Source: Verrucomicrobiota bacterium (GTDB lineage Bacteria; Verrucomicrobiota; Verrucomicrobiia; Verrucomicrobiales; Akkermansiaceae). Taken from it: a stretch of DNA of 64,000 bases. Each line of letters opens with the position of its first letter. The first letter of the stretch is position 1. This document shows, piece after piece, positions 8,818 to 23,116 of the stretch. Location: NCBI GenBank assembly GCA_026397725.1, contig JAPLUI010000266.1, forward strand, positions 1 through 64,000. Direction: 5' to 3'. Position numbers and translations under genes: made by a program. Below the pieces are notes generated by a model. That model did not search any database. It saw only the letters and a list, made by a program, of their open reading frames with translations, and was not told where the DNA came from.

Positions 8818-9798
8818 CTATTTGCCAGGTACCGGATTCGGGTTCACGGGGACTGCCGTGCAGGCCAGCCGGAAGCCCATGCTGTCGAAGTCGCTGCTCG
8901 GGAAGTCGTTGTAGCGATAGGCGGCGCGACAGGTACGGGCGTAGTCGCCCCAACTGCCGCCCCGGTTCACGCGGCGGGTGCCTGTGGCGGCACCCCGGGG
9001 ATCGGTTGATGGCTCGGTGGGGTAGGTGCCATACCAATCCCAGCACCATTCCCACACGTTGCCCGCCATGTCAAACAGCCCGTAGCCGTTTGCGGCGAAA
9101 CTCCCCACCGGCGAGGTGAAGGGAAAGTCATCGATGGCATAAGTCGGATGGTGGCCACGCGTCGGACTCTCGTCATACTTGTCAGCCACGTTGCTTTCGT
9201 AGTTGGCCTCGTTGTGGGTGATCGTATCGCCCCACGGAAAACGCTTTCCGCTCAAGCCACCCCGTGCTGCCTTCTCCCATTCCGCCTCCGTCGGCAGGCG
9301 ATATCCGTTCGCGCTCCACTTCACCATGGTATTGTCGAGTTTCGGGTTGCCCGTGCGCAAGACCGCCGTCTGCGCCGCATCCGTGTAGTAGCACGGGATC
9401 AGGCCCTCCTTTTCGCTCTTCGCGTTGCACCAACGCACCGCGTCAAACCAGGTGAGCGACTGCACCGGATGGTCTGCCGCCCTGCCTTCGCCGAGGGCGA
9501 GGTCCGGGTAACCATGCTGCTGGCTCCATGCCCGCACCTCATCCCACTGCGCCTTGGTCACCTCCTTCTTTTGCATGGAGAAGGCGCTCACGGTGACCGG
9601 GTGCGGAGTGGCCGTTTTGGTTCCATCGAGCGTATCGCCCATGGTGAATTCGCCGCCGGGAATAACGGCGAAGGCCGCCAGATCCGGTGACTTGGTGCCA
9701 GTACGGAGCTTGTTGGCCGTGACCTGGGCCTCGGCCGCCGGAGCGGCAGCGAGTGCCAGCGCAGCGAGCCAGGTGAGGAAACTGGGTGAGGTTTGCAT
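8818..9798 (-). CDS. Exported FGE-sulfatase domain protein with a possible variable C-terminus
   Basis: 326 residues from MQTSPSFLTWLAALALAAAP, a signal peptide ending near AEAQ. It has a full SUMF1-like domain: IPGGEFTMGDTLDG, MQKKEVTKAQWDEVRAW, DHPVQSLTWFDAVRWCNAKS, YRLPTEAEWEKAARGG, FPWGDTI, GLFDMAGNVWEWCWDWYG, NRGGSW and MGFRLA. It is a close paralogue of the gene at 21926-23116. Between GGSW and MGFR the codons GAC, TAC, ACC, TAC, AAC, GAC, TTC, AGC, AGC, GAC, TTC, GAC, AGC are all NNC and reachable from AAC. That is the pattern seen in DGR variable repeats, though high GC alone also favours C at third positions. Confidence 0.85.
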   Translation of the reverse strand: MQTSPSFLTWLAALALAAAPAAEAQVTANKLRTGTKSPDLAAFAVIPGGEFTMGDTLDGTKTATPHPVTVSAFSMQKKEVTKAQWDEVRAWSQQHGYPDLALGEGRAADHPVQSLTWFDAVRWCNAKSEKEGLIPCYYTDAAQTAVLRTGNPKLDNTMVKWSANGYRLPTEAEWEKAARGGLSGKRFPWGDTITHNEANYESNVADKYDESPTRGHHPTYAIDDFPFTSPVGSFAANGYGLFDMAGNVWEWCWDWYGTYPTEPSTDPRGAATGTRRVNRGGSWGDYARTCRAAYRYNDFPSSDFDSMGFRLACTAVPVNPNPVPGK

Positions 9799-20350: not shown

Positions 20351-21088
20351 TCACTCCCGCACGGACCTGAAATACCGCTTCGGAATTTCCTGCACGGAAT
20401 ACAACCTGGCGATCGTGCCGCCGGTGCCGGCGATGTGTTCCTCCACCGGTGCCCAGTTCACCAAATCCATGGACGACTCGACCCGGTAACTCTTGCCGAG
20501 GCCCGCGCCGAAGCGCACCTCCACCGCCGTGTAGATCACCAGTTGCGTGTCCGGCGAACTGTTCGGGTCGGTCGGGATGAAGCCGCTGGTGACCTCGTAG
20601 CCGTCGCTGAACCCGTCCCCGTCCGTGTCCCAGACGTCCGGGTTGCTGTGGTAAACGACGAGTTCCTGATAGTTCGTTAGACCGTCGCCATCGGGGTCGC
20701 GCCCGTCCGGGGCGAAGATGGCGTTGATGGTCTTGTTGAAGTCCAGCAAGACCGACAGCGGATTGGCGTTGCCGTTGGCGTCGCCGGTCCATTTGCTGAA
20801 CAGGTAGCCTGGGTCAGGGTCGCCGGCGCTGAGTTGGACCGTGGCGTTCGGGGCATACTGATGTTGGCCCGCGACGGGGTCCGTGATGCCGTGGGGCGAG
20901 GTGACTGTCAGATAGACCCAGTCACGGGTCTCGACGCTGACGTTGCTGGATTCAGCCAGGACCCAGCGGGTCTCGACGTTGATGTTGGATGACTCGGCGC
21001 TCACCCAGGTGGCGCGGGCCACCGGGGCGGGCAGGAACAATGCCGCCGCGAGGGCGGTCAGGGTGCGGTGGAATTTGGTAGCATTCAT
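20351..21088 (-). CDS. Small exported protein with calcium-binding DxDGDG repeats
   Basis: 245 residues from MNATKFHRTLTALAAALFLP, a signal peptide. An internal duplication follows, with SAESSNINVETR then LAESSNVSVETR. Next is a repeat-like domain (GYLFSKWTGDANGNANPLSV), then two thrombospondin-type-3-like calcium loops, DPDGDGLTNYQE and DTDGDGFSDGYE. A C-terminal domain ends in YRVESSMDLVNWAPVEE and RYFRSVRE, common at the C-end of secreted Verrucomicrobiota proteins. Extracellular or surface protein; no catalytic motif. The duplicated hairpin elements lie just upstream of its start. Confidence 0.75.
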   Translation of the reverse strand: MNATKFHRTLTALAAALFLPAPVARATWVSAESSNINVETRWVLAESSNVSVETRDWVYLTVTSPHGITDPVAGQHQYAPNATVQLSAGDPDPGYLFSKWTGDANGNANPLSVLLDFNKTINAIFAPDGRDPDGDGLTNYQELVVYHSNPDVWDTDGDGFSDGYEVTSGFIPTDPNSSPDTQLVIYTAVEVRFGAGLGKSYRVESSMDLVNWAPVEEHIAGTGGTIARLYSVQEIPKRYFRSVRE

Positions 21089-21120: not shown

Positions 21121-21202
21121 GCGTCGTTGCGAATGGGAGGAATTGTAGCGGCGCTCTGTGAGCGTCGTTGCGAATGGGAGGAATTGTAGCGGCGCTCTGT
21201 GA
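21121..21202 (+). repeat. Two tandem copies of a 41-bp unit
   Basis: Positions 21121-21161 and 21162-21202 are identical 41-bp units. Each ends in TTGTAGCGGCGCTCTGTGA, the arm of the hairpin elements that follow. This looks like slippage or a nested insertion at one edge of the element array. It lies 33 bp upstream of the exoprotein start, so it could affect that promoter. Confidence 0.85.
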
Positions 21203-21264
21203 GCGCCGATGCCAAAGAGATGCGCGATGCATTCGCCAGCGACGGTCACAGACCGCCGCTACAA
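21184..21264. mobile_element. MITE/REP-like hairpin element, copy 1 (81 bp)
   Basis: Bounded by TTGTAGCGGCGCTCTGTGA on the left and TCACAGACCGCCGCTACAA on the right. These are 19-bp inverted repeats with one mismatch. The interior shares GCGCCGATGCCAAAGAGATG with the next copy. No coding potential. Small palindromic elements of this kind are usually moved by a transposase encoded elsewhere. Confidence 0.75.
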
Positions 21265-21282
21265 CGCCGGCGCAGGATCGCC

Positions 21283-21382
21283 TTGTAGCGGCGCTCTGTG
21301 AGCGCCGATGCCAAAGAGATGCGCGATCCATTCGCATCGACTGTTCCCGCAGGGGAAAAGTAGTCACAGACCGCCGCTACAA
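21283..21382. mobile_element. MITE/REP-like hairpin element, copy 2 (100 bp)
   Basis: Same 19-bp inverted ends as copy 1, with the left half identical through GATGCGCGAT. The right half is longer and different, containing CTGTTCCCGCAGGGGAAAAG. The two copies sit 18 bp apart and in the same orientation. They occupy the place where a DGR reverse-transcriptase gene would be expected to begin. Confidence 0.75.
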
Positions 21383-21603
21383 CGCCGCGCAATGGCTTGG
21401 GAACGAATGGCTCGCCCAGTGGTAGCGTGCCATTACCGCCGAGGGAATCCCGCGCACCAAACCCGCCCGGAGCGTTCGCCGCAGCCTCCGCCGTTCCTAC
21501 CGGCACCGGGCGGGCATGCTGGTTTTGCCACGCCGCACCAGGCGGCGCGGACGGGATGGCAGCCGGGTCGGAGTGGTCATCCCGCGGCGGGGAGTCCTCT
21601 GAG

Positions 21604-21635
21604 CTGCGGACGGTGCGGAACCCGAGGTTGTTGTT
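21604..21635 (-). repeat. Template-repeat (TR) remnant of a DGR
   Basis: Read on the minus strand, this is three AAC codons followed by CTCGGGTTCCGCACCGTCCG. It matches the 3' end of the variable repeat in the FGE-fold gene (21930-21961) at 27 of 32 positions. Three of the five differences are at adenines of this copy (AAC to GAC, AAC to GGC), the expected result of adenine-specific mutagenesis. The other two are in the GFR-coding part. Only the 3' end of the TR is left; the part that would have matched the rest of the variable region is gone. Confidence 0.6.
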
Positions 21636-21644
21636 GCGATTGGT

Positions 21645-21734
21645 CAGAATCCGCTGCCCGCGCAGAAACCCGTTGAGTTCCTCCCCAAAGCCGCCGGCAT
21701 CATGCGCCGGAATCTTGAAAAATTCCAGTTGCAT
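21645..21734 (-). pseudogene. Truncated DGR accessory gene (first 30 codons)
   Basis: Encodes MQLEFFKIPAHDAGGFGEEL then NGFLRGQRIL. It resembles the N-terminus of the HRDC-type accessory protein that I recall beside reverse transcriptases in DGR loci. A full protein would be about 110-130 residues. Here the frame runs straight into the template-repeat remnant (TNRNNNLGFRTVRS), so about 300 bp have been deleted. It lies 190 bp downstream of the target gene on the same strand, the usual DGR order. The family call is from memory of the sequence pattern. Confidence 0.5.
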
Positions 21735-21740
21735 GAGTTC

Positions 21741-21774
21741 TTAAAGAAAATTCGCGGGGAAAGTTTCCCCCGCG
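21741..21774 (-). terminator. Hairpin followed by T-rich run downstream of the DGR target
   Basis: On the minus strand, CGCGGGGGAAA and TTTCCCCGCG pair with one bulge, followed by AATTTTCTTTAA. It fits a rho-independent terminator about 150 bp after the FGE-fold gene. DGRs often also need a GC-rich hairpin just after the variable repeat for retrohoming, which is an alternative reading. Confidence 0.45.
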
Positions 21775-21925
21775 ACCCCCTCATTGCTTTCATTGCCAGG
21801 ACGACCGAGGTGTCCTGAACCCTCACCCGCAGGGCGCTCGGAGGCTTCGTCCCTCAGCCTCCCGCCTGCCCTGCTAGCCATGACTGTCTATTCTGTTCTC
21901 ACCGGTGCTCAGAGGAAGACCACTC

Positions 21926-23116
21926 CTACCTGCGGACGGGACGGAACCCGAGGCCGTTGTCCTTGTTGCCCGGGCTGGAGTCGCCGCGGCGGGCCGCGCG
22001 GCAGCCGTAGGCGTCGTCGTACCAGGCGCCGCCGCGCCCCACGCGGTCCGAGCCGGACGGCCCGCCGGCAGGATCCGTTAGACTCGCGGGAGTGCCGTAG
22101 TAAGCGGCATCATACCAATCCCAGCACCACTCCCACACGTTGCCCGCCATGTCATGGAGGCCATAAGCGTTCGCCGCAAAACTCCCCACCGGAGAGGTGT
22201 AGGGGTAGCCGCCCACGGCGTAGGACGGATGATAGCCGGTGCTTCCAGTTTGATAGGTTTCGCCGCCAACGTTGTAGAAGTTCGCCTCGGTGTGACTGAT
22301 GATATTGCCCCATGGGAACCGCAGGCCCGCCAGGCCGCCGCGGGCCGCTTTCTCGCGCTCCGCCTCGGTCGGCAGCCGGTAGCCGTTGGCCGCCCATTTC
22401 ACCATGGTGTTGCCGATGCTGTTGGTGCCCGTCTTGAAGACCAGGGTCTGCGCGGCATCCGTGTAGTAGCAAGGCGTGAGCCCGTCCTGCTCGCTCCGCG
22501 CGTTGCACCATTTCACGACGTCATACCACGAGATCGTCTGCACCGGGTGGTCCGCCGCCTTGCCCGCACCGGCGGCCAGGTCCGTGTAGCCATGGACAAG
22601 TCCCCAGGTCCGCACCGCGTCCCAGTCCGCCTTGGTCACGCCCTTTTTCTGCATGTAAAACGCGCTCACGCTGACCGTGTGCGGCGAGGCATCGGTCATG
22701 CCGTCGAGCGGATCGCCCATGCTGAAGTTCCCGGCGGGGATGACCGCGAAGTCCGCCAGGGGCGGCATCCCGTCGCTTACCTTGAGGCGGAAGCGGGTCA
22801 ATGCGGAAGTCTGGTTGTTCCAATCCGCGCCGACGTTCCAGGTGATGCGCAGGTTGCTGCCGGGCGTGACATTGGCGCCGACCGCGCCGGTTATGATGGT
22901 GGTCGGCACCGCCCAGGTCGTGCCGCCATCGGCGGAGATTTCCAGCGCGACGATGACCGGGGTGGCGATGCCGGTGACATCATAGTCGATATCGACCAGC
23001 TTGGTGCCGGCGCGTTGGGCGGCACGGACATTGCCGACCGTGATTTGGGCCTGCGCCGGAGCGGCGGCCAAAGCCAGCGCGGCGAGCAGGGGGAGGAAGC
23101 GAGGGAGCGATTTCAT
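21926..23116 (-). CDS. Exported FGE-sulfatase domain protein, candidate DGR target
   Basis: 396 residues from MKSLPRFLPLLAALALAAAP, a signal peptide. An N-terminal beta domain of about 120 residues (ITVGNVRAAQRAGTKLVDID, with LRITWNVGADW) precedes the SUMF1-like domain: IPAGNFSMGDPLDG, MQKKGVTKADWDAVRTW, QTISWYDVVKWCNARS, YRLPTEAEREKAARGG, GLHDMAGNVWEWCWDWY. The last 40 residues, from RVGRGGAW to LGFRPVRR, are the typical variable region of FGE-fold DGR targets. This is the lectin-like ligand face that DGRs diversify. It is followed on the same strand by a DGR accessory stump and a template-repeat remnant. Confidence 0.85.
   Translation of the reverse strand: MKSLPRFLPLLAALALAAAPAQAQITVGNVRAAQRAGTKLVDIDYDVTGIATPVIVALEISADGGTTWAVPTTIITGAVGANVTPGSNLRITWNVGADWNNQTSALTRFRLKVSDGMPPLADFAVIPAGNFSMGDPLDGMTDASPHTVSVSAFYMQKKGVTKADWDAVRTWGLVHGYTDLAAGAGKAADHPVQTISWYDVVKWCNARSEQDGLTPCYYTDAAQTLVFKTGTNSIGNTMVKWAANGYRLPTEAEREKAARGGLAGLRFPWGNIISHTEANFYNVGGETYQTGSTGYHPSYAVGGYPYTSPVGSFAANAYGLHDMAGNVWEWCWDWYDAAYYGTPASLTDPAGGPSGSDRVGRGGAWYDDAYGCRAARRGDSSPGNKDNGLGFRPVRR
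21929..22055 (-). repeat. Candidate DGR variable repeat (VR)
   Basis: C-terminal codons of the FGE-fold gene. After GGAW the codons are TAC GAC GAC, then TAC GGC, then GGC GAC TCC AGC and AAC AAG GAC AAC GGC, before CTC GGG TTC CGT. Almost all are NNC, as expected from AAC codons changed at positions 1 and 2. The unchanged scaffold (RGG.W, C.RAARR, P.N, GFR) corresponds to a standard FGE-type template. The 3' 32 bp match the template remnant at 21604-21635. The left limit is estimated. Confidence 0.6.

Follow-up and report, generated by a model that had tools for sequence, protein, structure and literature searches.

The locus described here is very probably the target of a diversity-generating retroelement (DGR) whose own cassette was lost by one internal deletion, and whose variable repeat (VR) may have continued to be written afterwards. 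In DGR mutagenesis the RNA of a template repeat (TR) is copied with random substitutions at adenines, and the cDNA homes into the VR. In the window, by which we mean the whole 64,000-nucleotide stretch of DNA that was analysed, we observe the parts of such an element and a scar where they are joined; we also observe a second copy of the scar on contig C205, and a pattern of VR differences of the adenine type. The features of the window are:

21926..23116, minus strand: DGR target gene coding for an exported FGE-fold (SUMF1-like) protein of 396 aa (PF03781 and 2y3c matches)
21929..22063, minus strand: VR, about 40 codons, mostly NNC (VR-confined differences relative to C205)
21823..21879, minus strand: post-VR hairpin with the 9-nt loop GAGGGACGA, candidate DGR target-recognition element (model R2, stem covariation)
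21642..21734, minus strand: stump of an accessory (HRDC-type) gene, first 31 codons (homology to the C470 accessory gene, copy on C205)
21604..21635, minus strand: 3' remnant of the TR (AACAACAACCTCGGGTTCCGCACCGTCCGCAG; unmutated AAC codons, match to the G025 TR)
21462..21569, minus strand: DNA matching the 3' flank of the TR in an intact DGR (C470:6934-7041)
20351..21088, minus strand: next gene downstream, a conserved syntenic anchor to G019 and G029, both of which lack stump and TR

Here C-numbers are contigs of the genome to which the window belongs (G000), and G019, G029, G025 and G036 are related genomes. The G000 assembly is a draft of 584 contigs and 12.6 Mb with an estimated contamination of 5.5%, probably a MAG; because it is so fragmented and partly contaminated, missing DGR parts may simply be unassembled. 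At least 132 FGE-domain hits occur in these 12.6 Mb, many of them with VR-like ends, while the relatives of the genus that were compared measure 1.5-7 Mb, so that an expansion of FGE genes or a mixed bin is possible.

The target gene and its variable repeat

The sequence-only reading had proposed an exported FGE-fold gene with an NNC-rich end, and the annotation agrees; the positions and letters it gave also proved correct. An HMM scan assigns the target to PF03781 (FGE-sulfatase, E=5e-52), its N-terminus is signal-peptide-like, and among PDB structures its top match is 2y3c, T. denticola variable protein 1 (E=8e-25), a known DGR target. At the 3' end of the gene 31 of the last 40 codons are NNC, compared with 50% across the remaining gene, and the protein ends in GLGFRPVRR; the VR thus sits at the 3' end of a gene of the C-type-lectin/FGE fold. 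The scaffold of the window VR reads CGCGTG..GCGCGGCGGC..CTGG, and in a matching TR the NNC codons would stand as AAC; the VR on C515 has the same scaffold.

Two side observations concern the window itself. A second FGE gene (8821-9708, minus strand) also has a VR-like end (GTRRVNRGGSWGDYARTCRAAYRYNDF...GFRLA), and beside it no exact hairpin loop, stump or TR was found. The segments 21566-21609, just after the TR end, and 21902-21930, just after the VR, are inverted complements of each other, with arms of 15-17 nt at 87-88% identity.

The deletion scar

A gene start fused to the repeat had been placed about 190 bp downstream of the target, and this arrangement holds: the stump, MQLEFFKIPAHDAGGFGEELNGFLRGQRILT, begins 192 nt past the target stop, runs for 31 codons, and its reading frame carries on through N-R into NNNLGFRTVRSSED and the TR remnant. 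It had also been argued that a stump unlike any DGR accessory protein would count against a retroelement. An HMM scan of the stump alone gave no family match, as expected, since HRDC occupies roughly residues 77-147 in the complete protein, past the end of the stump, but the stump does match the accessory N-terminus of the intact, HRDC-type DGR on C470 (60% over 30 aa, E=2e-4 genome-wide). The accessory gene of the Avd/HRDC kind that adjoins the target is therefore represented by these 31 codons, which on C205 recur at 97%.

The sequence AACAACAACCTCGGGTTCCG occurs once exactly (21635-21616, minus strand) and once more with three changes inside the VR (21961-), with no closer copy within the 64-kb window. 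Extended to CCGTCCGCAG, the repeat is 32 nt long. The earlier claim that all differences between the copies fall at template adenines is correct for the three in the AAC codons, but over the longer repeat one of the five differences between VR and remnant is C/T, the other four being at template A. Since the C205 copy reads CGT at this place, the C/T difference is suggestive of a later mutation of the window remnant. Counted within each locus, differences at A are 4/5 in the window and 3/4 on C205; when both copies are compared with the inferred ancestral remnant, all seven are at A, although only 8 of the 32 template bases are A (p=6e-5). The confinement of VR differences to template adenines is thus seen directly in the 32-nt remnant, and indirectly elsewhere through the codon positions. 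The remnant also matches the TR end of the DGR in G025 (89% over 38 nt).

Beyond the remnant, 21462-21569 matches the post-TR DNA of C470 (6934-7041) at 81% over 108 bp (E=9e-24). The only place where the flank after 21604 follows an FGE gene with no nearby TR is C576, which itself appears to be a VR joined to a TR flank. The scar is more than a chance juxtaposition, since the junction recurs on C205 and the DNA on either side of it matches an intact DGR. An array of palindromic REP-like repeats (TTGTAGCGGCGCTCTGTGAGCG, window 21121-21390) separates the scar from the next gene; such an array is also present on C205, C470 and C576.

An intact DGR in the same genome

The DGR on C470 has the order target, hairpin, accessory (HRDC), RT, TR. 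Its accessory protein matches PF00570 (HRDC, E=3e-17), its RT carries IGSLTSQ and YMDD motifs (phrog_1423, E=1e-92), and 13 of the 15 differences between its own VR and TR are at TR A. A relative holds another intact DGR, G036:C98, with the same parts in the same order and the same hairpin loop. In both of these the accessory gene, RT and TR are intact, whereas the window locus is decayed; both accessories are homologous to the window stump, the TR flank is homologous for C470 only, and neither TR matches the window VR scaffold. That a DGR here lost its RT, most of its TR and most of its accessory gene, as had been proposed, is borne out by the intact C470 cassette and the identical scar on C205.

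Direct matching of VR to TR outside adenines is seen for the C470 VR/TR pair and for the C194 VR with the G036 TR, with 0-1 non-A mismatches in 79-83 positions. Some targets in this genome lie away from a TR, since on C141, C255 and C52 the VR agrees with the C470 TR at 72-78 of the 79 positions that are not A. An RT and TR elsewhere in the genome had been suggested for the window locus; an intact pair is indeed present on C470, but its TR must be rejected as the template now supplying the window VR, with 22/84 non-A mismatches compared with two for its own VR and two for C141.

A full TR with the window scaffold is absent from the G000 assembly, where the pattern search returned VRs only; the last 32 nt are all that survives. 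When G000, G019 and G029 were searched with a pattern for AAC-rich templates, the C470 TR came up together with a single match that looks fortuitous, and nothing else. Neither the parent TR nor the RT of the window VR family was found in the G000 assembly: there is no DGR-type RT at or near the locus, and the sole DGR-type RT (IGxxxSQ) found in G000 is that of C470. The RTs on C99 and C235 resemble those of group II introns and that on C84 adjoins a Cas1-like gene; all three are of a type other than DGR. On C84 (L003 1297-3572) the RT gene overlaps the Cas1-like ORF and, judged by eye, is perhaps a CRISPR-associated RT. No DGR-type RT was found in G019 or G029, the partial RTs in G029 being of another type. 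A wide search of GTDB genomes with the TR/VR end as query gave one Luteolibacter target with the same hairpin and without a TR; two further matches were discarded, the first being an unrelated FGE end of actinobacterial type and the second falling in unrelated sequence.

A graded series of decayed cassettes

Other loci in the genome retain more or less of a cassette. After VR and hairpin, the accessory remnant amounts to about 14 codons on C141, 31 in the window and on C205, and 41 on C316, while on C173 the full accessory gene and the first 73 RT codons remain. C100 has a similar accessory start without the exact loop. On C576 the VR is followed directly by a TR 3' flank, which would fit a recombination between VR and TR. 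On C194 (L078 1320-4741) there are two VRs that agree with the G036 TR at 82-83 of 83 non-A sites; two degenerate TR copies lie beside them, and there is no RT. Another DGR template family (NNNMGFRPARSSDH) is represented next to the intact DGR of C470 by a TR piece in inverted orientation, on C325 by a further piece, and on C576 by the fusion:

L011 7212-7280 (minus strand), L073 2064-2353 and L080 2510-2569 (minus strand): fragments of the NNNMGFRPARSSDH template family, including the C576 VR/TR-flank fusion

The hairpin after the VR

About 70 nt past the target stop is a GC-rich hairpin (21823-21879, minus strand), which scores 63 bits with model R2. Its loop GAGGGACGA is found after the VRs on C205, C470, C141, C289, C255, C316, C173, C194, C114 and C128, and also after those of G019, G029 and G036, so that the same loop follows the VRs of the intact DGRs of C470 and G036. 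Inner-stem pairs are kept in 73% of the cells of the pair count, and five of the seven change on both sides, i.e., they covary. The outer stem is well formed in only part of the set, and C128, G036b and C325 keep the loop with little stem.

The hairpin model, built from 13 of the loop-bearing hairpins, gave 16 hits over 12.6 Mb, nearly all just after VRs. Hits outside the model-building set, on C147 and at two places in G036, are also just after VRs; a weak hit on C178 is not.

A hairpin is required in the DGR of phage BPP-1 (Guo et al. 2011, PMC3240598). The resemblance to that hairpin/cruciform lies in a GC-rich stem of free sequence and a conserved loop just after the VR. The phage-type element, however, has a 4-nt GRNA loop, a stem of 7-10 bp and a distance of 4-34 bp to the VR, a description that the window hairpin, with its 9-nt loop about 70 nt past the stop, does not fit, and part of the present set has a double stem, unlike BPP-1. 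By analogy, we infer a role for the hairpin in DGR targeting.

Apparent diversification after the loss

A second copy of the unit, with the identical scar, is found on C205. Between the window and C205, 32 of 132 VR nucleotides differ, 31 of them at codon positions 1-2 and only one at a third position; in the gene outside the VR 81 of 1059 differ, 40 at third positions. The relatives, whose comparison had been recommended, tell a similar story. The G029 and G019 orthologues have the downstream neighbour gene in common with the window and lack both stump and TR, and their VRs differ from each other at 25/129 nt compared with 14/999 outside (98.6% identical; p=1e-15). Because same-scar copies and RT-less orthologues differ in the VR in the DGR pattern, the sequences suggest, on the simplest reading, that writing of VRs of the window family went on after the cassette was lost, either in trans or via intact alleles in the population. 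The earlier proposal that the loss froze one variant finds no support in these comparisons.

Very probably, a single internal deletion took out the RT together with the larger part of both the accessory gene and the TR, so that accessory codon 31 now abuts the final 32 nt of the TR. It spared the FGE-fold target and its VR, the hairpin behind the VR, the first codons of the accessory gene, and the end of the TR along with the DNA that flanks it on the 3' side. That one deletion took the middle follows from the match of the stump to the C470 accessory N-terminus on one side and of the flank to C470 post-TR DNA on the other. VR writing after the deletion may then have relied on an RT and template in trans, now lost or unassembled, or on intact alleles in the population. 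Orphan target genes can apparently be served from elsewhere, and for the window locus we infer such a trans source. As nothing that fits remains in the assembly, the variant in this cell line may now be fixed.

Two alternatives accept the DGR and dispute the history. It is possible, though we do not favour it, that the decay is confined to this assembly, with an intact accessory-RT-TR in part of the population or on an unassembled copy and the VR diversified there in cis. Such a situation has a precedent in Thiohalocapsa PB-PSB1, where VRs without a matching TR were explained by long-read structural variants with intact RT and TR (PMC10907252), and G000 is a fragmented draft. The scar, however, is far from either end of its 82-kb contig, and another contig has a copy of it that has diverged by several percent, so it must be a real allele; moreover, the G029 and G019 orthologues have no cassette at all. 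We also consider it unlikely that the VR was frozen at the deletion, the difference between the C205 and window VRs being older than the loss and the scar being copied between the loci by gene conversion. The scar segment is indeed less diverged than the remaining unit (20/450, 4.4%, compared with 102/1331, 7.7%; p=0.02), so spread of the scar by gene conversion after VR divergence is possible, and the assembly contains no matching TR. On the other hand, divergence is fairly even, from 7.6% upstream of the gene to 8.7% in the far flank, which fits duplication of the whole unit, and the VRs of G029 and G019, with no DGR RT detected, are strongly different in genes otherwise 98.6% identical.

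Two others dispense with the DGR in whole or in part. Recombination among FGE paralogues, or diversifying selection, could draw on the very many paralogues with variable ends, but would have to place differences at codon positions 1-2 of mostly NNC codons while the scaffold stays fixed, even between orthologues that are otherwise nearly identical, and would leave the direct TR-A matching of the C470 VR/TR and C194 VR/G036 TR pairs unaccounted for; we hold this to be very unlikely. Least credible of all is that none of this is DGR debris: a degraded FGE gene would have left its conserved C-terminal motif (GFR) as the repeat, and the stump would be an ORF that arose by chance. GFRxxR is the ordinary end of FGE-domain proteins, of which the genome has so many, yet the stump is homologous to DGR accessory genes and in the right place, the AAC codons are unmutated, and the 3' flank is the TR flank of C470 and G025 rather than a post-VR flank.

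Relation to known systems

Loss of the RT with survival of targets is already known from T. denticola and Thiohalocapsa. In T. denticola an HRDC accessory gene overlaps the RT, targets are remote, and targets survive in strains without RT and TR (PMC4891356). That HRDC-type DGR with TvpA (variable protein 1) has exported targets of the FGE/C-type-lectin fold, as here; unlike it, the window locus retains the first part of the accessory gene and the last part of the TR as a deletion scar, this scar is found twice, and the post-VR hairpin has a 9-nt loop. Thiohalocapsa PB-PSB1 has many DGR loci, some incomplete, with some targets served in trans and some VRs without a matching TR (PMC10907252). 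The present genome is likewise a multi-DGR genome with incomplete loci, but its host is verrucomicrobial, the nearest named match being a Luteolibacter MAG, and alongside a single intact DGR RT it has several decayed cassettes that belong to different lineages. New here are a scar that two copies have in common, the series of decay stages, and a class of hairpin with the invariant loop GAGGGACGA.

DGR targets without a nearby RT are missed by RT-based metagenome surveys, a stated limit of that approach (PMC8144416), and the hairpin loop offers a simple sequence tag for finding them. The locus is an unusually readable fossil: the junction, both flanks, a same-scar sister copy and an intact relative are all present in one genome, and therefore DGR decay and post-decay diversification can be placed in order. 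As a tentative extension, which we put forward with some doubt, DGR cassettes may arrive, write their target and then be deleted from the far end, leaving hairpin-marked targets that can be addressed in trans. In this way one or a few transient RTs might come to be surrounded by a growing repertoire of orphan, still rewritable surface proteins, and the loop would then be a new class of DGR address tag.
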